From a virus, in the IMG/VR virus record IMGVR_UViG_3300040856_000084, positions 1-38,437 of that record: a DNA stretch of 38,437 nucleotides; one strand, 5' to 3'. The position numbers and the translations under genes are program-made. Below are positions 1-38,077 of this stretch, one piece after another; position 1 is the first letter of the stretch, and each line of letters opens with the position of its first letter. The notes under the pieces are model-generated. The model saw only the letters and a list, made by a program, of their open reading frames with translations. It was not told the origin of the DNA and ran no database searches.

Positions 1-439
1 ATCCATTACCAGTGCCGGTGCTGTTGGTAACGCTAATTGAAAAGTTTCCTCCTCCGCCTCCGCCAGATGCCGTTACTGTAGTAATTCCTGTTCCAGATAT
101 AGACGAATCACTACCAGTTGAACCTGCGTCTCCTGTAGCTGTAGCACTTGCTCCAGCACCTACAGTAATTGTGTAAACATTTCCTTCTACTAACCCAAAA
201 CCAGAAGCAGTTCTGTATCCGCCAGCACCACCACCAGCCCCATGATAAGTGCCGCCACCGCCTGCGCCACCACCAGCAAGAACTAAATATTCAATTTCAG
301 CAGTAACAGCAACTCCGGGCCATTTTTGTTTTCCTATAAATGTAGTAGCTTCTTGAACGCTCCAAACACCACTAGCCGCGCTACTTGTTGGCGTTACTTT
401 AGTTGAAGAAATAATATTGCCTTGATGACGGCTAGACAT
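1..439 (-). CDS. Glycine-rich tail fibre/adhesin, N-terminal part (cut by window edge)
   Basis: The start codon is the ATG read leftward from 439; the frame stays open to base 1, giving the first 146 residues. The complete copy is at 35810-36784, where the protein is described. This copy differs from the complete one at two residues: a Gln-to-Asp change from two substitutions in one codon (128 and 130) and a Glu-to-Gly change (195). The start overlaps the stop of the 432-794 gene by 8 bases. Confidence 0.85.
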   Translation of the reverse strand, partial: MSSRHQGNIISSTKVTPTSSAASGVWSVQEATTFIGKQKWPGVAVTAEIEYLVLAGGGAGGGGTYHGAGGGAGGYRTASGFGLVEGNVYTITVGAGASATATGDAGSTGSDSSISGTGITTVTASGGGGGGNFSISVTNSTGTGNG

Positions 440-794
440 TTACTTGATCCCAGCTAGTTGTTTCTTCATTCCACTCATACATATTGCCATCATCAGGTCT
501 TGTAGTAGGGGCTTCCCATTGACACGTTGTTTCATTTAAAACCCAGCTTGCGTATGGCTTAGGCGGTATAAAAGCATCACGACCACTATCGTATATAAAC
601 CCAATGCCTGCAAAATTCTTTCGTATATTGTTGTTGTAGCTGGTCTGTTTCCATGTGCCACCAAACAATGTGTTACAAAAAGATATTCCAAGAGACTCTT
701 GCTCATCACCATTTTCATCAAGCAGTTCTGGATTAGCTATAACAACTACCCGTAACACCTCGTTGTTTTCATTTAATTCTGCAAAGTGTGCCAT
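432..794 (-). CDS. Conserved fibre-associated structural protein, 120 aa
   Basis: A 120-residue acidic protein with many Trp, Asn and Glu residues. I recognise the type from marine phages, where similar short proteins lie among tail-fibre genes, but no biochemical role is established that I can name. It sits between two paralogous polyglycine fibre genes. Its ATG at 794 shares a base with the stop of the 794-1732 gene (TAATG), and its stop overlaps the start of the next gene by 8 bases, so translation is probably coupled. A tail-fibre accessory or assembly role is inference from position. An identical copy lies at 36777-37139 because of the terminal redundancy. Confidence 0.75.
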   Translation of the reverse strand: MAHFAELNENNEVLRVVVIANPELLDENGDEQESLGISFCNTLFGGTWKQTSYNNNIRKNFAGIGFIYDSGRDAFIPPKPYASWVLNETTCQWEAPTTRPDDGNMYEWNEETTSWDQVNV

Positions 795-1732
795 TAGAAC
801 GTAATACTCCCTGATCCGGTAAATGTATAAATATTATAACTACCATCTGTAGTTGTCGTCGGTGAACCTGTTGTAGCGGCGGCTGTAGCTAAAGTTCTAA
901 TAATTACAACACCCGAACCTCCAGCGCCTCCGCTTATTGTAGTTGGGTAGCCACCACCGCCACCTCCACCACCGGTGTTAGCAGTTCCTGAGCCAGCGGC
1001 AACAGTACCTGTGCTACCAACACCGCCTCCACCAGCGCCGGCATTACCGGGGTTATGACCAAGGCCACCCCAACAACCACCGCCTCCGCCGCCTGCTCTT
1101 GTTACAGATGAGCCAGTAATTGAAGATGCACGACCTGCGCCGCCATTACCTCCTCTTGTCGAGCTTGCCGCACCAGCAAGGCCATCAGGGTCATTACCAG
1201 CGCCGCCGCCAGCGCCTCCCGGCCCATTTTTAACAACTCCCTTAGTGCCATTATTTCCTTCTGACGGTGTGTATCCGCCAGCGTTACCAGAACCCGCCGT
1301 AGCGGCATTATCAGACGCTCCACCACCAGAGCCTCCGTCACCGCCGTTTTCTTCTGTACCACCACTATACGAGCCACCTCCACCGCCGCCGCTAGAAGAC
1401 GCAGAATTAAATGAGCTGTCAGTTCCGTTTGAGCCTCTAGTGCTTGTGTTTACTCCAGCCGCACCTCCTGAGCCTACTGTGACAGTGTAAGCAACGCCTG
1501 ACGAGAGCGTTTGGTTAGTAAACTCACGATAACCGCCAGCGCCTGCTCCAGCGGCAATTTGAGTGCCACCACCGCCACCGCCAGCAATAATTAGGTAATC
1601 TACAACTGGCGGATTTCCAGGCCACCCAGATTTATTTTGAGAGTGGGTAGCTAAAGCCCAAACACCACTAAAAACCTTTGGGACTTCTTCTAAACCGTTA
1701 AAACCAATAAAACCGCCTTTATCTTTAGCCAC
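794..1732 (-). CDS. Polyglycine-rich tail fibre/adhesin, 312 aa
   Basis: A 312-residue protein dominated by glycine runs (about residues 45-285) broken by short Ser/Asn/Thr stretches. Such stretches are known from phage receptor-binding adhesins, for example the T4-like S16 gp38, where they pack as polyglycine type II helices. The first 45 residues are not Gly-rich and include a VDYLIIAGG strand leading into the Gly domain. The last 40 residues (IIRT..., then a YNIYTFTGSGSITF end) are nearly the same as the end of the neighbouring fibre at 35810-36784, so the two are paralogs. No collagen-type Gly-X-Y periodicity is seen. Host-receptor binding is inferred. An identical copy lies at 37139-38077. 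Confidence 0.75.
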   Translation of the reverse strand: MAKDKGGFIGFNGLEEVPKVFSGVWALATHSQNKSGWPGNPPVVDYLIIAGGGGGGTQIAAGAGAGGYREFTNQTLSSGVAYTVTVGSGGAAGVNTSTRGSNGTDSSFNSASSSGGGGGGSYSGGTEENGGDGGSGGGASDNAATAGSGNAGGYTPSEGNNGTKGVVKNGPGGAGGGAGNDPDGLAGAASSTRGGNGGAGRASSITGSSVTRAGGGGGGCWGGLGHNPGNAGAGGGGVGSTGTVAAGSGTANTGGGGGGGGYPTTISGGAGGSGVVIIRTLATAAATTGSPTTTTDGSYNIYTFTGSGSITF

Positions 1733-2129: not shown

Positions 2130-3434
2130 CTATCCGAATACAATAGCCATCGCAATGGCTTTACCAGTTCCAGCTTTTGAATCTAGCTGGGTTTGAATGT
2201 TAGATGTTACCCCGTCAACGTAATTTAACTCTGCTGTTGTGGCTGTAACACCGTCTAAGATGTTCAATTCAGCCGCTGTGGACGTAATTGCTGTACCACC
2301 AAGGGTTAGGGTGCCTGATACCGAAAGGCTCGACAGGGTGCCTACAGACGTAATCTGAGTCTGTGCGGCGTCAACCGATAGAGTGTTTGTCGTAAGGGTT
2401 AAGCCTGTGCCTGCTGTCAAAGCAGTCTTAGATACATCAATAGCCGCACTAGCGTTAACATCTGCATTGACAATCACGCCAGAACCAATAGCCGCTACGC
2501 CTGTATCAGCAATCGTAATGTCACCTGATACTACGTTGTCGATCCACTTAGACGTAGCAGTGTCGTAGAACAACAAAGCACCATCAGCCGGTGTTGTTAC
2601 ATTGGTGTCTGTTAGGTCGCTTAATGTAGTGGCTCCACCAGCTTGAGAATCAACATACGCCTTAATAGACTGCTGACTTGCCAATGCCGTCGCAGAGTTG
2701 CTAGTCATAGCGTCTTCATCTAAAAACGCTGTTACACCGTCTAAAACATTTAACTCACTTGCTGTAGATGTAACTCCGTCTAAGATATTTAATTCTGCTG
2801 TTGTTGCAGTAACACCATCAAGAATATTCAACTCAGCAGTTGTTGCTGTTACTCCGTCAAGAATGTTTAGCTCTGCGGCAGTAGATGTGATAGATACGCC
2901 ACCAATTTGCAAAGTTGTTGCATTTATTTCGCCCGACGCGCCATAAACTACAGACTTTGAATTAACAATAGTTCCTGCAACGGCGCCATCAAGAAGATTT
3001 ATTTCTGAAAATGTAGCAGTTACACCATCAAGAGTATTTAGCTCTGCTGTAGTCGCTGTAACGCCATCTAAGATATTTAACTCAGCGGCGGTAGATGTCA
3101 CGCCGTCTAAAATGTTAAGTTCTGCGGCTGTAGAAGTTATTGCTACGCCACCTAAAGTAAACGTGCTAGACGCAGATAAAGTAGTAAACGATCCTGCTGA
3201 TGCAGTAGACCCGCCTACAGTTGTTCCGTCAATGTTACCGCCGTTAATGTCAGCAGTAGGAATGGTAACTGTGCCAGTAAAAGTAGGGCTTTCTATATCA
3301 GACTTCGTAGCAATCGCAGTTGATATAGCGTTAAATTCAGTATCAAACTCTGAGCCACGGATAACCTTATTAGTGTCACCTGTAGGCAAAGAGTCCTTAG
3401 CAGTAAAGTTTGTTGACTTTGTGTAGTTGGACAT
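2130..3434 (-). CDS. Tail fibre protein with 14-residue ELNILDGVT repeats
   Basis: A 434-residue protein with a 14-residue repeat of the type (S/T)TAELNILDGVTA. Repeats occur in register at about residues 101, 115, 129 and 143, again at about 184, 198, 212 and 226, and once more near the C-terminus. This repeat is well known from trimeric phage tail fibres, especially in marine phages. The N-terminus (NYTKSTNFTAKDSLPTGD...) resembles virion-anchoring ends of such fibres. The gene is the first after the terminator that follows the major capsid gene, so it needs read-through or a separate promoter. A GGAAAG ribosome-binding site precedes the ATG at 3434. Confidence 0.85.
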   Translation of the reverse strand: MSNYTKSTNFTAKDSLPTGDTNKVIRGSEFDTEFNAISTAIATKSDIESPTFTGTVTIPTADINGGNIDGTTVGGSTASAGSFTTLSASSTFTLGGVAITSTAAELNILDGVTSTAAELNILDGVTATTAELNTLDGVTATFSEINLLDGAVAGTIVNSKSVVYGASGEINATTLQIGGVSITSTAAELNILDGVTATTAELNILDGVTATTAELNILDGVTSTASELNVLDGVTAFLDEDAMTSNSATALASQQSIKAYVDSQAGGATTLSDLTDTNVTTPADGALLFYDTATSKWIDNVVSGDITIADTGVAAIGSGVIVNADVNASAAIDVSKTALTAGTGLTLTTNTLSVDAAQTQITSVGTLSSLSVSGTLTLGGTAITSTAAELNILDGVTATTAELNYVDGVTSNIQTQLDSKAGTGKAIAMAIVFG

Positions 3435-3486
3435 AAGGCTTTCCTATCCGTTATCTTTTAGTTAACCGCCCTGTCATCAAGACGTT

Positions 3487-5881: not shown

Positions 5882-5910
5882 ATTATAACATATTTTTAAC
5901 TAAAAGTCAA
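5882..5910 (-). promoter_or_regulatory. Leftward sigma70-type promoter for capsid unit
   Basis: On the minus strand TTGACT (5910-5905), a 17-base spacer and TATAAT (5887-5882), with TGT just before the -10 (extended -10). The element is nearly the same, spacer included, as the promoter at 11406-11434. The flanks also match: ATAAATAAT followed by two bases precedes both. It lies 20 bases upstream of the 5861 start codon. Confidence 0.85.
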
Positions 5911-11434: not shown

Positions 11435-11506
11435 GCATTATTTATAGTAAATAAGTCACAAGTTACACTTAGGGACACCATATTTACACTTGTGGCCCCG
11501 CCCTGA

Positions 11507-11530
11507 GTAAATCACGAGGTAAATCAGGAG
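11507..11530. repeat. 12-base tandem repeat
   Basis: GTAAATCACGAG (11507-11518) is followed directly by GTAAATCAGGAG (11519-11530), one mismatch. It lies next to an AT-rich tract in the intergenic region and may be a protein-binding iteron pair. Confidence 0.55.
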
Positions 11531-11702
11531 GTTGTACACGAGTCATAATCACTGTTTTTTACCTATTTTTTAGCTGATTTGACTCTTTTGGGTGCTTGAG
11601 TAGCTACAACAATAATTAACACAGGTCAACCCCCTCCCCCCGTGTCAAAACTCAGGCCATCCCATGATACCACAGGATCAACACGATTGCAAGGATAAAC
11701 AT

Positions 11703-11716
11703 TGGTATTATTCACA
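11703..11716 (+). repeat. TGGTAWTATTCACA repeat, copy 1
   Basis: TGGTATTATTCACA. The last nine bases, TTATTCACA, fit the bacterial DnaA-box consensus TTWTNCACA exactly. The first nine also look like an extended -10 (TGG + TATTAT), so it could be a promoter element instead of, or as well as, a DnaA site. An ATTGCAA lies 11 bases upstream of the GG, as in copy 3 (12 bases). Confidence 0.6.
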
Positions 11717-11745
11717 AGGCACTAGGGGTTGACACGAGGCGCAGA

Positions 11746-11780
11746 CTGTGGTAGTCACGAGGCCCGAAGTCCTACCACAG
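11746..11780. repeat. 9-bp perfect inverted repeat, 17-base loop
   Basis: CTGTGGTAG (11746-11754) and CTACCACAG (11772-11780) are exact reverse complements around 17 bases. No T-run follows on either side, so this is more like a dimeric protein site or a structured RNA/ssDNA element than a terminator. Confidence 0.6.
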
Positions 11781-11790
11781 ATGACACGGG

Positions 11791-11818
11791 TTGTCAAGTG
11801 TTTTGACACTGGTAATAT
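11791..11818 (+). promoter_or_regulatory. Candidate rightward promoter
   Basis: TTGTCA (11791-11796), a 16-base spacer and TAATAT (11813-11818) preceded by TGG (extended -10). The -10 is part of repeat copy 2, so a protein bound to that repeat would block this promoter. It points to the early gene arm, whose first start codon is at 12085. Confidence 0.45.
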
Positions 11819-11823
11819 TCACA
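11810..11823 (+). repeat. TGGTAWTATTCACA repeat, copy 2
   Basis: TGGTAATATTCACA. ATATTCACA matches the DnaA-box consensus at 8 of 9 positions. The repeat is in the same orientation as the other copies and contains the -10 of the 11791-11818 promoter candidate. Confidence 0.6.
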
Positions 11824-11924
11824 GGTGATTGTGGGTTGACAAGTGTGTGGACCTGTGTTGGACCCTCTGGCTAACCGCAAGCATACTCAGCACAAGATGT
11901 CAAGCGTTAAATTCATGTGACCTT

Positions 11925-11933
11925 TTATACACA
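11925..11933 (+). other. DnaA-box-like site TTATACACA
   Basis: TTATACACA fits the consensus TTWTNCACA exactly and has the same orientation as the three TGGTAWTATTCACA repeats around it. A single 9-mer is weak evidence on its own; the clustering in one short intergenic region is what makes it notable. Confidence 0.45.
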
Positions 11934-11983
11934 CGCGCACACGCGAGTAACACAAATCCCAGGGAATTGCAATAGTCCAAACG

Positions 11984-11997
11984 TGGTAATATTCACA
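11984..11997 (+). repeat. TGGTAWTATTCACA repeat, copy 3
   Basis: TGGTAATATTCACA, identical to copy 2, with ATTGCAA 12 bases upstream of the GG. It lies just before the candidate early promoter at 12009-12036, a place where bound protein could repress or activate it. Confidence 0.6.
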
Positions 11998-12008
11998 CGA
12001 AAGAATAC

Positions 12009-12036
12009 TTGCACACTCACGAGATACCTGTACAAT
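12009..12036 (+). promoter_or_regulatory. Candidate early rightward promoter
   Basis: TTGCAC (12009-12014), a 16-base spacer and TACAAT (12031-12036). The -10 matches consensus at 5 of 6, the -35 only partly. A start near 12043 gives a leader of about 42 bases to the first early gene. It is the closest promoter-like sequence to the early arm. Confidence 0.45.
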
Positions 12037-12084
12037 GGGAACCATATCAAGGTAATCAACGTTAACTATATAGAGGGTAATCAC

Positions 12085-12264
12085 ATGGCTTTAACTATTG
12101 ACCAATTCCACCCAGCGACTCACCGCTATATTGTGTGGCTAATTGAGCCTAGCGGCCGTCGGTGCTGCGCCCATAGCTTCACAACCTTGGAAGATGCCGA
12201 AAGCTACGGGATAGCACAGATTGACGGTAAAGCGTGGTCACATTATGAGATCATTAAACGATAG
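12085..12264 (+). CDS. First early gene, unknown small protein, 59 aa
   Basis: ATG at 12085 follows a GAGGG site 7 bases upstream. The 59-residue product (MALTIDQFHPATHRYIVWLI...) reads like a compact alpha/beta domain: an aromatic strand, Arg/Cys pair (RRCCAH), an LEDAESYG helix and a final strand. I do not recognise a family. As the first gene of the rightward arm it is a candidate host-takeover protein. The frame is open further upstream to 11917 but that extension lacks a ribosome-binding site and would cover the promoter. Confidence 0.65.
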   Translation: MALTIDQFHPATHRYIVWLIEPSGRRCCAHSFTTLEDAESYGIAQIDGKAWSHYEIIKR

Positions 12265-12278
12265 AGGAGGGTTGTTTT

Positions 12279-12329
12279 ACTGGTGGGCATCTGCTACGGT
12301 GTCCACTGGTAAGCCAACACACTGGCTTA
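12279..12329 (+). ncRNA. Structured RNA cassette, copy 1 (conserved-loop hairpin)
   Basis: An 11-bp stem (12279-12289 with 12300-12310; three or so G-U wobbles) encloses the 10-base loop TCTGCTACGG. A second hairpin follows directly (TAAGCCA 12310-12316, loop ACACAC, TGGCTTA 12323-12329). AAACCAAACGAGGG (12341-12354) then supplies the ribosome-binding site for the gene at 12363. Stem 1 and loop reappear at 12570-12593 with compensating base changes. It lies in the leader of one small gene and downstream of another; there is no T-run, so simple termination is unlikely. Confidence 0.6.
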
Positions 12330-12362
12330 ACTTGAAACCTAAACCAAACGAGGGTAATACTC

Positions 12363-12554
12363 ATGGATAACGTAACACGTAAGACAGTATTCGGTCGGTC
12401 TGTAATCATTCGCAAGCGAGTACTTAAGCGTAAGCCTATCGGCTACTCTAGCGGCTCATGCTTCCACAAGCTAGACGCTGGTTACTGGTCGCTGTACGTG
12501 AGCCTACGCAAGCCACAGCGCAAGATAGGATTTGGTAAAATTACCGATAAATAA
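12363..12554 (+). CDS. Small basic early protein, 63 aa
   Basis: ATG at 12363 with GAGGG 8 bases upstream. The 63-residue product is rich in Lys, Arg, Ser and Gly (RKRVLKRKPIGYSSGS), with a C-terminal KPQRKIGFGKI stretch. It has no recognised motif. It could bind nucleic acid by charge. It is bracketed by the two copies of the hairpin cassette, upstream at 12279-12329 and downstream at 12562-12601. Confidence 0.6.
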   Translation: MDNVTRKTVFGRSVIIRKRVLKRKPIGYSSGSCFHKLDAGYWSLYVSLRKPQRKIGFGKITDK

Positions 12555-12561
12555 CACTTGT

Positions 12562-12601
12562 GTTTAACAATGGGCATCTGATACGGTGCCCATGATTAAA
12601 C
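12562..12601 (+). ncRNA. Structured RNA cassette, copy 2 (conserved-loop hairpin)
   Basis: ATGGGCA (12570-12576) and TGCCCAT (12587-12593) form a perfect 7-bp stem around TCTGATACGG. After a 2-by-2 internal loop (CA/GA) an outer stem GTTTAA (12562-12567) pairs with TTAAAC (12596-12601). Loop identity with copy 1 is 9 of 10. The outermost pair of the inner stem is A-T here and G-C in copy 1, and a G-U in copy 1 is G-C here, so pairing is kept while bases change. AAACCAAAAGAGGG (12613-12626) follows, as in copy 1, ahead of the 12634 start. Confidence 0.65.
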
Positions 12602-12633
12602 GCAACACACACAAACCAAAAGAGGGAAACAAC

Positions 12634-12828
12634 ATGAAACATTGGGAAATTGACAGCGACCAACACGGCCATGTACGTATTGAGTGGAACGAAGGCGCAA
12701 CATTCAATCTGCAAACGCCCATTGGTGGCGAGTGGGTAGACTTCCACTGCTTTACCTGCTACGGTATCACTGAGGATCACGAGGCGCTAGAGACTGCGCT
12801 TGAAATACTAGAGGAGATGGCACAATGA
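12634..12828 (+). CDS. Small acidic early protein, 64 aa
   Basis: ATG at 12634 with GAGGG 7 bases upstream, immediately after hairpin cassette copy 2. The 64-residue acidic protein (MKHWEIDSDQHGHVRIEWNE...) has a beta-rich first half with Trp and His residues and a Glu/Leu helix at the end (EALETALEILEEMAQ). I do not recognise a named family. Its stop overlaps the next start as ATGA, so it is coupled to the DUF8033-like gene. A longer reading from 12586 lacks a ribosome-binding site and would translate the hairpin. Confidence 0.65.
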   Translation: MKHWEIDSDQHGHVRIEWNEGATFNLQTPIGGEWVDFHCFTCYGITEDHEALETALEILEEMAQ

Positions 12829-13058
12829 AACTACGACAGATTGCAAGCAACATGACAGAAGTGACCACAGAGAAAGGACAGATCCTGTTCTCATACGAGA
12901 CACCAGTGGCGGCACTACTGGCCGACGACGATAACGGTGACACAGTGGTTAAGACTAGCCACAAGTGGAGCCAAACCACCAGCCGACATATTAACAAGTG
13001 GCTTGACGGTTTAACAGCGGCAGAGCGACCGCAAGCATTCTTTGACAATTTAGTATAA
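12825..13058 (+). CDS. Small conserved phage protein (DUF8033-like), 77 aa
   Basis: A 77-residue protein with the recognisable pattern MKLRQIASNMTEV...ILFSYETPVA...KTSHKWSQTTSRHINKWL. This small protein is frequent in phages of diverse hosts; I recall it as DUF8033, function unknown. The conserved Ser-x-x-Thr-x-x-His-Ile-x-x-Trp segment near the C-terminus is the best identifier. It is coupled to the preceding gene by ATGA and followed by a strong AAGGAGG site for the next gene. Confidence 0.75.
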   Translation: MKLRQIASNMTEVTTEKGQILFSYETPVAALLADDDNGDTVVKTSHKWSQTTSRHINKWLDGLTAAERPQAFFDNLV

Positions 13059-13070
13059 GGAGGCGTAACG

Positions 13071-13277
13071 ATGTATTGGGATAGGTTTGACATTTGCGAG
13101 GCATACCACGCTTTCGCCACAGACTACCACGGCGGTCAGTGGTCGCCAGAGTACGCCATACTAGGCAGACTGCAACGCATGGGGTATCGTGCGGGTTTCG
13201 GTGGCGTGACATACGACGCATTGACAGAGAACGGTAAATCAATATATGATAACTTGGTCAGCAAACTAGAAAGATAA
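13071..13277 (+). CDS. Small conserved phage protein, 68 aa
   Basis: ATG at 13071 with an AAGGAGG site 7 bases upstream. The 68-residue product begins MYWDRFDICEAYHAFATDYH and ends in a LTENGKSIYDNL helix. Proteins with a WDRFDI-EA-Y-F start and a Gly-rich middle are common companions of DUF8033-type genes in phages, with no known function. The pairing of the two here repeats that neighbourhood. I see no catalytic motif. Confidence 0.7.
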   Translation: MYWDRFDICEAYHAFATDYHGGQWSPEYAILGRLQRMGYRAGFGGVTYDALTENGKSIYDNLVSKLER

Positions 13278-15570: not shown

Positions 15571-17187
15571 GTGAAACCTACTTTCTCACACAAAGAGGAG
15601 TGTCCTAAGTGTGGAAGTAGGGACAACGTGGCGGTCTACTCAGACGGTGGCCGTCACTGTTTCACCCCTAACTGTGGTTACCACGTATCAGGGACAGGAG
15701 CGCTTCAGGAGATGGATTCTGTGCAACCCGTATCTAACCTACGCATGAGTGGTGTTGTTGCTGAGATAAGCGACAGGAGGCTCTCACAGCGTACAGCACA
15801 GAAGTACCAAGTAACGGTTGACTACGCACCAGACGGCAAGATTGCTACCCACTACTACCCGTACTACGACAGAGACACGGGTGAACTGGTGGGGGCAAAG
15901 CAGAGGTTCGTAAGCAACAAACAGTTTGTGTGTTCAGGTAACATGACCAACGTAGGTCTGTTCGGACAGAAGCAGTGCCGTGGGTCCGGTAAGTACATCA
16001 CGATCACTGAGGGCGAGCTAGACGCTATGGCTGTCTACGAGATGTTCGGACAGAAGTACGACGTAGTGAGCCTACGATCAGGCGCTAGCGGTGCCGCAAG
16101 AGAGATCAAGCAGAACCTAGAGTGGTTGGAGGGCTACGACAACGTAGTGATCTGCTTTGATCAGGACAAGGCAGGAGACATAGCAGTAGATCAGGTCAAG
16201 CATCTGTTCAGTCCTAACAAGCTGAAGATATGCAAACTGCCCATGAAGGACGCTAGCGATATGCTGACGGCTAACAGGGTGCAGGAGTTTACACAGGCTT
16301 GGTGGGACGCAAAGGTGTACCGGCCTGATGGTATTGTCGCAGGGACGGACACATGGGACGCACTGGTAAACAAGAGACAGGTCCAGAGTATCCCGTACCC
16401 GTGGGAAGGACTCAATGAAATCACGAGAGGACACAGACCGTATGAACTGGTCACTATCACCAGCGGTAGTGGCATGGGAAAATCACAGTTTATCAGAGAA
16501 CTTGAGTACGACTTGCTCCAACGCACAGACGCAAACATCGGTGTACTTGCACTGGAGGAGGACGTTGCAACAACAGCTTTGGGAATCATGTCGGTGGCAT
16601 CATCTAGGCGGCTACACTTGGAGGAAGACACGCCTGTTGATCAGCTTAGACCGCATTGGGAAGCAACGATGGGATCTGGAAGGTACTACCTTTTTGATCA
16701 TTGGGGGTCAACGTCAGCGGATGAGTTACTATCACGAGTCAGGCACATGGCAAAGGCTTGCGACTGCCGGTACATCATCCTTGACCACCTGTCCATCGTC
16801 GTTTCTTCTCAAGAGAACGGAGATGAACGGAAAGCCATTGACGAGATCATGACAAAGCTACGCACACTGGTGGCAGAGACAGGGATCACGTTGTTCCTCG
16901 TGTCGCACCTGAAGCGTACCTCTGGCACAGCACACGAGGACGGAGGCAGGATCAGTCTACAGGATCTCAGGGGATCACAGTCCATAGCACAGTTGTCAGA
17001 CATCGTGATCGGCATGGAGCGTAACCAGCAACACGAGGACGAGGACGTAAGGAACACTACGTGCGTCAGGATTCTCAAGAACCGTTACGCAGGAGAGACA
17101 GGACCAGCGTGTTGGCTACGGTACGACAAGTTTACCGGACGTATCCACGAGTGTGCTAACCCTAATCCACCGGAGACTGAGTTTTGA
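15571..17187 (+). CDS. DNA primase-helicase (T7 gp4-like)
   Basis: A 538-residue bifunctional enzyme starting with GTG at 15571. The N-terminal zinc ribbon has Cys11, Cys14, Cys30 and Cys35; the TOPRIM primase core has TEGELDA (146-152) and FDQD (196-199). The RecA-like hexameric helicase has Walker A GSGMGKS (299-305), later a Walker B-like YIILDHLS and an RGSQSIAQLSD region. It unwinds DNA and lays primers at the fork for the adjacent polymerase. Length matches T7 gp4 (566). It is translationally adjacent to SSB. Confidence 0.95.
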   Translation: MKPTFSHKEECPKCGSRDNVAVYSDGGRHCFTPNCGYHVSGTGALQEMDSVQPVSNLRMSGVVAEISDRRLSQRTAQKYQVTVDYAPDGKIATHYYPYYDRDTGELVGAKQRFVSNKQFVCSGNMTNVGLFGQKQCRGSGKYITITEGELDAMAVYEMFGQKYDVVSLRSGASGAAREIKQNLEWLEGYDNVVICFDQDKAGDIAVDQVKHLFSPNKLKICKLPMKDASDMLTANRVQEFTQAWWDAKVYRPDGIVAGTDTWDALVNKRQVQSIPYPWEGLNEITRGHRPYELVTITSGSGMGKSQFIRELEYDLLQRTDANIGVLALEEDVATTALGIMSVASSRRLHLEEDTPVDQLRPHWEATMGSGRYYLFDHWGSTSADELLSRVRHMAKACDCRYIILDHLSIVVSSQENGDERKAIDEIMTKLRTLVAETGITLFLVSHLKRTSGTAHEDGGRISLQDLRGSQSIAQLSDIVIGMERNQQHEDEDVRNTTCVRILKNRYAGETGPACWLRYDKFTGRIHECANPNPPETEF

Positions 17188-35809: not shown

Positions 35810-36784
35810 TTAAAATGTAATACTTCCAGAGCCAGTAAACTTATAAATATTGTAACTACCATCGGTGCTTGTAGTTGGTGAGCCTGTTGTAGCTGTTGCT
35901 GTTTCTAAAGTTCTTATAATTACAACTCCTGAACCTCCCGCTCCTCCAAGGTAACTGGTGTGCGACGTTGCACCACCTCCACCGCCTCCTAAATTATTAG
36001 TTCCATTTCCACCGTTTGAGTTAGTACCGCCAGCACCACCTCCACCAGAGCCTCCAGCGGCCCCGCTAGTTTGATAAGCACCGCCTCCGCCACCACCACC
36101 GTATGTAACACTAGAGCCTGTTATGGAATTAGCAGTACCGTTTCCTCCCGCTCCAGCCGTCGTAGAAGACCCGTCTGTTCCTGCGGCTCCAGCACCACCA
36201 CCGCCTCCAGAGCCATAATTTGGTGCAGAATTATTTCCATCACCGCCATCATTACCTTCAGATGGACTGTATCCCCCTGCGTTTCCACTACCTGCAATGT
36301 TTCCTGTTCTTGCGCCACCACCTCCTGATCCGCCATCTTTTCCGTATCCATTACCAGTGCCGGTGCTGTTGGTAACGCTAATTGAAAAGTTTCCTCCTCC
36401 GCCTCCGCCAGATGCCGTTACTGTAGTAATTCCTGTTCCAGATATAGACGAATCACTACCAGTTGAACCTGCTTGTCCTGTAGCTGTAGCACTTGCTCCA
36501 GCACCTACAGTAATTGTGTAAACATTTCCTTCTACTAACTCAAAACCAGAAGCAGTTCTGTATCCGCCAGCACCACCACCAGCCCCATGATAAGTGCCGC
36601 CACCGCCTGCGCCACCACCAGCAAGAACTAAATATTCAATTTCAGCAGTAACAGCAACTCCGGGCCATTTTTGTTTTCCTATAAATGTAGTAGCTTCTTG
36701 AACGCTCCAAACACCACTAGCCGCGCTACTTGTTGGCGTTACTTTAGTTGAAGAAATAATATTGCCTTGATGACGGCTAGACAT
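35810..36784 (-). CDS. Polyglycine-rich tail fibre/adhesin, 324 aa (complete copy)
   Basis: A 324-residue paralog of the 794-1732 protein. After about 50 residues with VTAEIEYLVLAGGGAGG leading in, most of residues 53-285 are Gly runs with Ser/Asn/Thr spacers, then an IIRT... segment and a YNIYKFTGSGSITF end shared with the paralog. Polyglycine adhesins bind host surface receptors in several phages. The truncated copy at 1-439 carries two amino-acid differences, which may be population variants. A run of fibres next to the lysis genes and adaptor fits a tail module. Confidence 0.75.
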   Translation of the reverse strand: MSSRHQGNIISSTKVTPTSSAASGVWSVQEATTFIGKQKWPGVAVTAEIEYLVLAGGGAGGGGTYHGAGGGAGGYRTASGFELVEGNVYTITVGAGASATATGQAGSTGSDSSISGTGITTVTASGGGGGGNFSISVTNSTGTGNGYGKDGGSGGGGARTGNIAGSGNAGGYSPSEGNDGGDGNNSAPNYGSGGGGGAGAAGTDGSSTTAGAGGNGTANSITGSSVTYGGGGGGGAYQTSGAAGGSGGGGAGGTNSNGGNGTNNLGGGGGGATSHTSYLGGAGGSGVVIIRTLETATATTGSPTTSTDGSYNIYKFTGSGSITF

Positions 36785-37139
36785 TTACTTGATCCCAGCT
36801 AGTTGTTTCTTCATTCCACTCATACATATTGCCATCATCAGGTCTTGTAGTAGGGGCTTCCCATTGACACGTTGTTTCATTTAAAACCCAGCTTGCGTAT
36901 GGCTTAGGCGGTATAAAAGCATCACGACCACTATCGTATATAAACCCAATGCCTGCAAAATTCTTTCGTATATTGTTGTTGTAGCTGGTCTGTTTCCATG
37001 TGCCACCAAACAATGTGTTACAAAAAGATATTCCAAGAGACTCTTGCTCATCACCATTTTCATCAAGCAGTTCTGGATTAGCTATAACAACTACCCGTAA
37101 CACCTCGTTGTTTTCATTTAATTCTGCAAAGTGTGCCAT
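36777..37139 (-). CDS. Conserved fibre-associated protein, 120 aa (second copy of 432-794)
   Basis: Identical protein to the one at 432-794, present twice only because the window over-reads a circular genome. Here its full context is visible: it lies between polyglycine fibre 37139-38077 and polyglycine fibre 35810-36784, with an 8-base overlap on the latter and TAATG coupling with the former. Confidence 0.75.
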   Translation of the reverse strand: MAHFAELNENNEVLRVVVIANPELLDENGDEQESLGISFCNTLFGGTWKQTSYNNNIRKNFAGIGFIYDSGRDAFIPPKPYASWVLNETTCQWEAPTTRPDDGNMYEWNEETTSWDQVNV

Positions 37140-38077
37140 TAGAACGTAATACTCCCTGATCCGGTAAATGTATAAATATTATAACTACCATCTGTAGTTG
37201 TCGTCGGTGAACCTGTTGTAGCGGCGGCTGTAGCTAAAGTTCTAATAATTACAACACCCGAACCTCCAGCGCCTCCGCTTATTGTAGTTGGGTAGCCACC
37301 ACCGCCACCTCCACCACCGGTGTTAGCAGTTCCTGAGCCAGCGGCAACAGTACCTGTGCTACCAACACCGCCTCCACCAGCGCCGGCATTACCGGGGTTA
37401 TGACCAAGGCCACCCCAACAACCACCGCCTCCGCCGCCTGCTCTTGTTACAGATGAGCCAGTAATTGAAGATGCACGACCTGCGCCGCCATTACCTCCTC
37501 TTGTCGAGCTTGCCGCACCAGCAAGGCCATCAGGGTCATTACCAGCGCCGCCGCCAGCGCCTCCCGGCCCATTTTTAACAACTCCCTTAGTGCCATTATT
37601 TCCTTCTGACGGTGTGTATCCGCCAGCGTTACCAGAACCCGCCGTAGCGGCATTATCAGACGCTCCACCACCAGAGCCTCCGTCACCGCCGTTTTCTTCT
37701 GTACCACCACTATACGAGCCACCTCCACCGCCGCCGCTAGAAGACGCAGAATTAAATGAGCTGTCAGTTCCGTTTGAGCCTCTAGTGCTTGTGTTTACTC
37801 CAGCCGCACCTCCTGAGCCTACTGTGACAGTGTAAGCAACGCCTGACGAGAGCGTTTGGTTAGTAAACTCACGATAACCGCCAGCGCCTGCTCCAGCGGC
37901 AATTTGAGTGCCACCACCGCCACCGCCAGCAATAATTAGGTAATCTACAACTGGCGGATTTCCAGGCCACCCAGATTTATTTTGAGAGTGGGTAGCTAAA
38001 GCCCAAACACCACTAAAAACCTTTGGGACTTCTTCTAAACCGTTAAAACCAATAAAACCGCCTTTATCTTTAGCCAC
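37139..38077 (-). CDS. Polyglycine-rich tail fibre/adhesin, 312 aa (second copy of 794-1732)
   Basis: Identical to the gene at 794-1732; the same genomic locus seen twice. See that entry for domain layout. Its C-terminal 40 residues are close to those of the paralog at 35810-36784. Confidence 0.75.
   Translation of the reverse strand: MAKDKGGFIGFNGLEEVPKVFSGVWALATHSQNKSGWPGNPPVVDYLIIAGGGGGGTQIAAGAGAGGYREFTNQTLSSGVAYTVTVGSGGAAGVNTSTRGSNGTDSSFNSASSSGGGGGGSYSGGTEENGGDGGSGGGASDNAATAGSGNAGGYTPSEGNNGTKGVVKNGPGGAGGGAGNDPDGLAGAASSTRGGNGGAGRASSITGSSVTRAGGGGGGCWGGLGHNPGNAGAGGGGVGSTGTVAAGSGTANTGGGGGGGGYPTTISGGAGGSGVVIIRTLATAAATTGSPTTTTDGSYNIYTFTGSGSITF

Follow-up and report, generated by a model that had tools for sequence, protein, structure and literature searches.

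The window analysed in this work is the whole 38,437-base stretch of an IMG/VR virus record, and it belongs to a phage. Among its genes are those for a primase/helicase, a DNA polymerase, a ribonucleotide reductase and a Cas4-type exonuclease; the best 25 matches listed for the DNA polymerase were all from Pelagibacter and Roseobacter phages, with identities of 40-47%. Open reading frames (ORFs) of equal length are present at both ends of the window (432-1732 and 36777-38077, offset by 36,345 bases), which suggests that the record overlaps itself, by terminal redundancy or circular assembly. The search for RNase III gave no match in the window record (its controls were detected in 8 of 14 cases). 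For a single-subunit RNA polymerase no match was found in the window phage either, and the same search did match in the T7, Vibrio and Bp7 records; thus, the host polymerase presumably transcribes the region described here.

The locus of interest lies near the start of a rightward gene block, below repeated promoter-like stretches. The sequence TGGTAWTATTCACA was observed three times upstream of the early genes (11703-11716, 11810-11823 and 11984-11997), two of the copies being inside a 36-base repeat with TTGACA at its end; these copies are possible candidates for early promoters or operators. Three small genes follow on the + strand, at 12085-12264 (59 aa from the ATG at 12085), 12363-12554 (63 aa) and 12634-12828 (64 aa), none of them with a PHROG match. 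One hairpin, copy A, is located between the first and the second gene, and another, copy B, between the second and the third, both on the sense strand. Each hairpin starts 3-6 nt after a stop codon (6 nt in the case of the 59-aa gene), and from its end to the next ATG there are 28-44 nt. The ribosome-binding regions are AAACCAAACGAGGG after copy A (12341-12361, + strand) and AAACCAAAAGAGGG after copy B (12613-12632, + strand), and they precede the start codons at 12363 and 12634, respectively.

Structure of the two hairpins

Copy A (about 12271-12318, + strand) folds with outer pairs GUUG/CAAC, a lower stem UUAC/GUAA, a tandem wobble UG/UG and an upper stem GUGGGCAUC/GGUGUCCAC that carries the loop UGCUAC. 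Copy B (12558-12605, + strand) folds with a lower stem UUGUGUUUAA/UUAAACGCAA, a 2x2 internal loop CA/GA and an upper stem AUGGGCAUC/GGUGCCCAU with the loop UGAUAC. According to folding, both have about 18-20 pairs around the 2x2 position. A small second hairpin can form 3' of copy A, and the sequence that follows the hairpin differs in other copies of the family.

The 21-base core GGGCATCTGNTACGGTGNCCA, with up to 3 mismatches, was found in the window only at 12285-12305 and 12572-12592, and in none of 100 shuffles. When the folding energies were compared with those of shuffled sequences, z was -5.0 for copy A and -7.2 for copy B with the hairpins alone, and -2.8 and -5.5 with about 100 nt of context. 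The full-length model of the family (R1) matches copy A at 12275-12314 and copy B at 12562-12601 (E 8.5e-10), both copies being among its own training sequences, and the upper-stem model (R2) matches them at 12283-12306 (29.4 bits) and 12570-12593 (28.9 bits).

An initial annotation of this DNA had proposed two structured hairpins, each followed by AAACCAAAMGAGGG and a start codon. The hairpins are real, as judged by a core match never seen in shuffles and by folds well below the shuffled energies, and AAACCAAAMGAGGG does follow both copies (12341-12354 and 12613-12626), ahead of the ATG codons. The extents then assigned, 12279-12310 and 12562-12601, were too short, and the 2x2 position splits each stem. 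Moreover, the 10-base loop described at that time, TCTGNTACGG, included two closing pairs (U.G and C-G), and the true loop is of 6 nt, UGNUAC. With up to one mismatch, TCTGNTACGG alone gave 13 matches in the window for 7.2 expected, and 3 of 100 shuffles gave as many. A possible third copy at 12755 was discarded, being a one-mismatch loop match within a gene where the 21-base core is absent at up to 3 mismatches.

In that annotation the loop was recognised as no known riboswitch or terminator, in agreement with the Rfam search, which gave no match at the gathering score in the window or in 10 further loci, T7 among them; between 12200 and 12700 there was one weak match to an unrelated family (17.9 of 35 bits). 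Two other identities were put aside. Copy A can be read as a leader peptide (GTG...TAA), but in copy B this frame is interrupted by a stop, and the stems covary. N4-type hairpin promoters have a 3-base loop, and this identity was dropped for that reason.

A family of covarying hairpins

The searches yielded 113 copies with distinct flanks, in a viral collection that is redundant. The carriers are marine phages, Chaseviridae coliphages, one Aeromonas phage, one Vibrio phage, and Campylobacter phages and chromosomes. When viral contigs were scanned with the core, 42 loci were obtained, 19 with at least 5 further pairs (one of these, L008, was judged to be chance) and 23 with 0-1; a second scan, with the CA/GA form fixed, gave 26 loci, of which two (L048 and L050) look like chance. 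When copy B was compared by BLAST with named phages, ten records were retrieved at E 0.02-0.3, and the first three examined were Chaseviridae in which this structure recurs, with another loop, ahead of early genes in the neighbourhood of ssb. Model R1 was run over 43 records, chosen for having a copy, and it found 2-3 sense copies in each of seven Chaseviridae records and in Aeromonas phage phiA050, and 1-2 in marine contigs. Phage flopper, for which E. coli MG1655 is recorded as host, has three of the hairpins. Campylobacter phage CAM-P21 has two such hairpins, and further carriers are a Vibrio Autographiviridae phage, a Nitrincola contig, a Bacteroidota MAG contig and Campylobacter genome contigs. 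An origin in the host chromosome was rejected: the coliphage copy has no match in the E. coli genome, and copy B gave two poor plasmid matches.

Some other observations were made along these searches. A viral contig of 158 kb (L140) has hairpins at 2498-2520 and 3446-3468, each ahead of a small ORF. In several Chaseviridae records (L045 after 4428, L070 after 2041) a second conserved stretch, GACAAAGCTATTCCGTGGTTAGCAATGTC, is found just 5' of ssb; it seems able to form a hairpin of its own and is possibly a candidate ssb operator.

In the alignment A2, from which six loci judged to be chance (L004, L008, L023, L030, L037 and L040) and then exact duplicates were left out, changes on both sides were observed at 10 of 15 pairs, and 94.6% of the cells pair, a percentage that is inflated here, as in the alignment A3, by the choice of hairpins with a pairing descriptor. 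Some alignment members also came from a scan that fixed base pair 8 of the upper stem as U.G. The free-pair scan avoids both selections: only the lower stem, the loop and three upper pairs were fixed (TTAACA, one G, CA, TG, one C, GATTAA), so that six upper-stem pairs were left free. All six were formed in 30 of 33 distinct viral matches, some of them from related phages, and in 4 of 37 distinct matches in bacterial genomes, the chance for one match being about 0.003. These four correspond to Campylobacter, Bacteroidota and Nitrincola loci, and the Nitrincola locus and an IMG/VR record (L104, L186) agree in length and position. The compensating stem changes reported between the two window copies are thus real and extend across many relatives; the additional homologs with covarying stems whose absence was to have counted against the element were looked for and found. 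The loop, which had been taken as the conserved part, belongs to the regions that vary most across the family.

Elsewhere, the descriptor hits have 9-11 upper and 4-12 lower pairs, some of them being shorter than the window copies, and in most copies the lower stem is UUAA/UUAA. When only the 8-base lower stem and the loop were fixed, the matches were mostly chance, and an upper stem of at least 9 bp was present in 5 of the 210 matches listed from newly fetched loci. Three loci of that scan (L194, L240 and L241) form a marine subgroup. They have GTTTAACA/GATTAAAC, their upper stem is of 11 bp (ATGGCCCCTTG or ATGGCCCTTTG), and their base pair 8 is C-G or U-A.

The upper stem shows preferred pairs. 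Over 60 distinct hairpins, base pair 8 is U.G in 46, U-A in 10 and C-G in 4, base pair 6 is C-G in 51, and the G-C at base pair 3 is conserved; where the scan left base pair 8 free, it was U.G in 26 of 30. Out of 64 distinct upper hairpins, 49 were taken into A3, with U.G at base pair 8 in 45; the remainder comprises four that resemble chance (L008, L023, one of L118, L157) and eleven that look real, mostly of Campylobacter type, for whose omission there was no good reason. The left-out hairpins include Campylobacter ones lacking the C-G/U.G signature, and if the eleven are counted in, the U.G tally is weakened and the confidence in the RNase III reading proposed below becomes slightly lower. 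A passive hairpin, which would shield the upstream message at its 3' end or insulate neighbouring genes with no specific protein partner, would fit a very stable fold placed right after stop codons; such a hairpin would need neither the preferred U.G and C-G at base pairs 8 and 6 nor a fixed CA/GA loop, and we regard this explanation as quite improbable.

Genomic context

An ORF stop was found at most 90 nt upstream in 103 of the 105 scored elements (median -6), compared with 48% of random positions. An ORF start was found at most 90 nt downstream in 93 of 105 (median 27), and in 33 of 105 on the opposite strand, the value of 60% for random positions making this a weak control. None of the 105 elements is spanned by an open frame. 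A Shine-Dalgarno-like sequence precedes the downstream ORF in 98 of 113 distinct elements. The 98 downstream proteins fall into 51 families, 34 of them singletons (BLAST E 1e-4), and therefore the element is not tied to one kind of gene, in agreement with the reuse ahead of unrelated small genes noted in the initial annotation. Within the window, the 63-aa protein has nine relatives (51-94% identity) that are encoded in other contigs after a hairpin of this kind, and the 64-aa protein is a singleton. In Vibrio phage 1.204.O (Autographiviridae), the element is located between the genes of the small and the large terminase.

Several copies per genome, next to unrelated genes, could also be the result of a hairpin that is mobile at the DNA level, or of an intrinsic terminator. 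However, no stem followed by a T-run was detected between 11500 and 13200, on the opposite strand the wobbles would become A.C mismatches, and the sequence varies with the pairing kept, so we consider it most improbable. An RNA antiterminator acting on the host RNA polymerase, similar to put or new, which was one of the functions first suggested for these hairpins, would be in line with the early position below promoter-like repeats and with a region presumably read by the host polymerase. The put RNA of phage HK022 binds the beta-prime zinc domain and is described in PMC9378689 as an RNA of about 70 nt with two stems that lies past the early promoters, whereas the element is one stem between genes, is also present in phages with their own polymerase, and has no terminator-like site beside it at 11500-13200 of the window; this role would be very surprising. 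As for the leader RNA proposed originally, a structured, covarying and repeated RNA holds, but a leader read through its loop does not agree with the variable loop and the intercistronic placement.

Relationship with the RNase III sites of T7

When the intercistronic stretches of T7 were folded, they showed the same upper stem as the new family. A model of the upper hairpin only, made from 49 T7-free sequences, was run on the T7 genome with filters off and gave 19 hits at E up to 10: eight on the sense strand at R-sites, two on their antisense, and nine elsewhere. The eight sense hits end at 5884 (rank 1, E 1.1e-4), 36853 (rank 2), 3135, 887, 6445, 18560 (with a 24-nt insert in the loop), 13889 and 1465. 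Adding 3 nt to the last seven gives what we take to be the cuts of R18.5, R1, R0.3, R1.3, R6.5, R4.7 and R0.5, where R0.5, R1 and R1.3 are names of T7 RNase III sites. R1.1 is cut at position 5887 (PMC8708148). In this way, the hit end plus 3 nt coincides with the RNase III cut in 8 of the ten sites known in T7 (PMC9135205), R3.8 and the weak R13 being those missed by the model in the T7 genome. In PMC5592923, R3.8, R4.7, R6.5 and R18.5 are given as strong sites and R13 as a weak one. Only R1.1 has a strong E-value, those of the other seven sites being weak (0.018-4.1), and the weight of the match is in the exact coincidence with known sites. At the sequence level, R1.1 (AAGGUCAUUC/GAGUGGCCUU) is nearly identical to the third Chaseviridae copy (GAGGUCAUUC/GAGUGGCCUC).

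It should be noted that the upper-stem model is unspecific at weak scores, as seen in the 9 of 19 T7 hits off-site and also in the Vibrio phage and SP6. In the Vibrio phage it matches two terminator-like hairpins, one with 18.8 bits vs 18.3 for the phage's own element; these hits, at 16737 and 22047, have T-runs and were dropped as sites. In SP6 (L424) it also matches coding sequence, and it matches at 12236-12257 (E 0.0018) what is by sequence a T7-type site. This SP6 hairpin is intergenic and has the T7-type ACUC/UAUGA loop. Another SP6 hairpin, at 3333-3356 just 5' of the RNA polymerase gene, has a smaller and different internal loop and is a possible further variant.

The full model R1 gave no significant site in T7 (best 12.9 bits, E 3.7), and T7 was also unmatched in a separate search; this is due to the internal loop of T7, ACUC/UAUGA (4/5), which differs from CA/GA (2/2).

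Proposed function

We propose, with a probability of about three in four, that each hairpin serves as a signal for RNase III processing between the genes of an early polycistronic transcript of the phage. The hairpins would form in the nascent phage mRNA, and the host RNase III would recognise the 9-10 bp upper stem, with its G-C at base pair 3, its C-G at base pair 6 and the frequent U.G at base pair 8. By the T7 geometry we infer that base pair 8 falls in the distal box, for which PMC11780869 describes a U-G enrichment with the E. coli and B. subtilis enzymes. The cut would fall at the 2x2 internal loop or next to it, some 3 nt beneath the upper stem, and is predicted between 12309 and 12310 in copy A and between 12596 and 12597 (GAU^UAA) in copy B, on the + strand. 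The downstream small genes would then each be released as a separate message, whose new 5' end would lie about 25-40 nt from the ribosome-binding site, and a hairpin would stay attached to the upstream message. Binding, cutting and any effect on stability or translation are expected by likeness to T7, whose early polycistronic RNA receives five RNase III cuts, R1.1 being cut at one bond (PMC4858673). A position nearly always between genes, before unrelated proteins, is what is expected for a processing site, and the stems of the window copies have the long two-part form of about 20 bp that belongs to such signals. Among the functions offered in the initial annotation, processing or stability of the message is favoured by this likeness.

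On the other hand, UUAACA...GAUUAA is conserved more tightly than RNase III reportedly needs, and E. coli RNase III sites are described in PMC8708148 as having no strong consensus. This conservation of the CA/GA loop and the UUAA lower stem, together with a location ahead of ribosome-binding sites, would rather suit an RNA that RNase III, or another conserved host RNA-binding protein, binds without cutting, with the CA/GA loop as recognition site of a translational or stability switch. Nevertheless, the signature of the upper stem falls on sites where T7 RNA is cut, and the unrelated downstream genes make gene-specific control improbable, so we find such a switch unlikely.

A broader proposal, which we hold tentatively and with more doubt than confidence, is that a phage-wide element, UUAACA-[9-10 bp stem, often with U.G]-GAUUAA, may be a natural substrate of high specificity for RNase III, or be bound uncut, in unrelated phage families whose hosts are Gammaproteobacteria, Campylobacter and perhaps Bacteroidota, where the CA/GA mismatches would set the strand that is cut. 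A covarying family from many phages, in which the internal loop is fixed and certain pairs are preferred at positions 3, 6 and 8, amounts to a natural record of the features that RNase III may read, and with this element message processing can be annotated also in phages that lack a T7-like polymerase. No earlier report of it was found in the literature searched, which was of open licence, with most subscription papers outside it and part of the searches aimed at the element.

Comparison with known systems

Like the put RNA of HK022, the hairpins are structures of a phage early transcript that are present twice per genome. They differ in being a single stem between genes, while put has two adjacent stems in about 70 nt.

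In T-even phages, the "promoter early stem-loop" (PeSL) cassettes are small regulatory stem-loops repeated between unrelated early genes, an arrangement that the window hairpins share; in contrast, there is no terminator-like site at the window copies.

The closest likeness is with the R-sites of T7, which are also intercistronic, on the sense strand and with a small loop, and whose upper stem, GGNCAUY/RGUGNCC, has 9-10 bp and in many cases a U.G wobble. R18.5 follows the small terminase gene, as the element of Vibrio phage 1.204.O does. The T7 sites are cut by RNase III, whereas for the new family cleavage is a prediction from sequence. The new family also has a UUAA/UUAA lower stem in most copies, and its carriers include Campylobacter phages and chromosomes, as well as three marine records in which no RNA polymerase was matched. 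The internal loop, which in T7 is mostly ACUC/UAUGA (4/5), is CA/GA or UG/UG (2/2) in the new family, and the window copies, with UG/UG in copy A and CA/GA in copy B, do not have the loop of the T7 subtype. Because the loops differ and R1 fails on T7, we classify the element as a variant of the phage RNase III signal and not as a T7 subtype.
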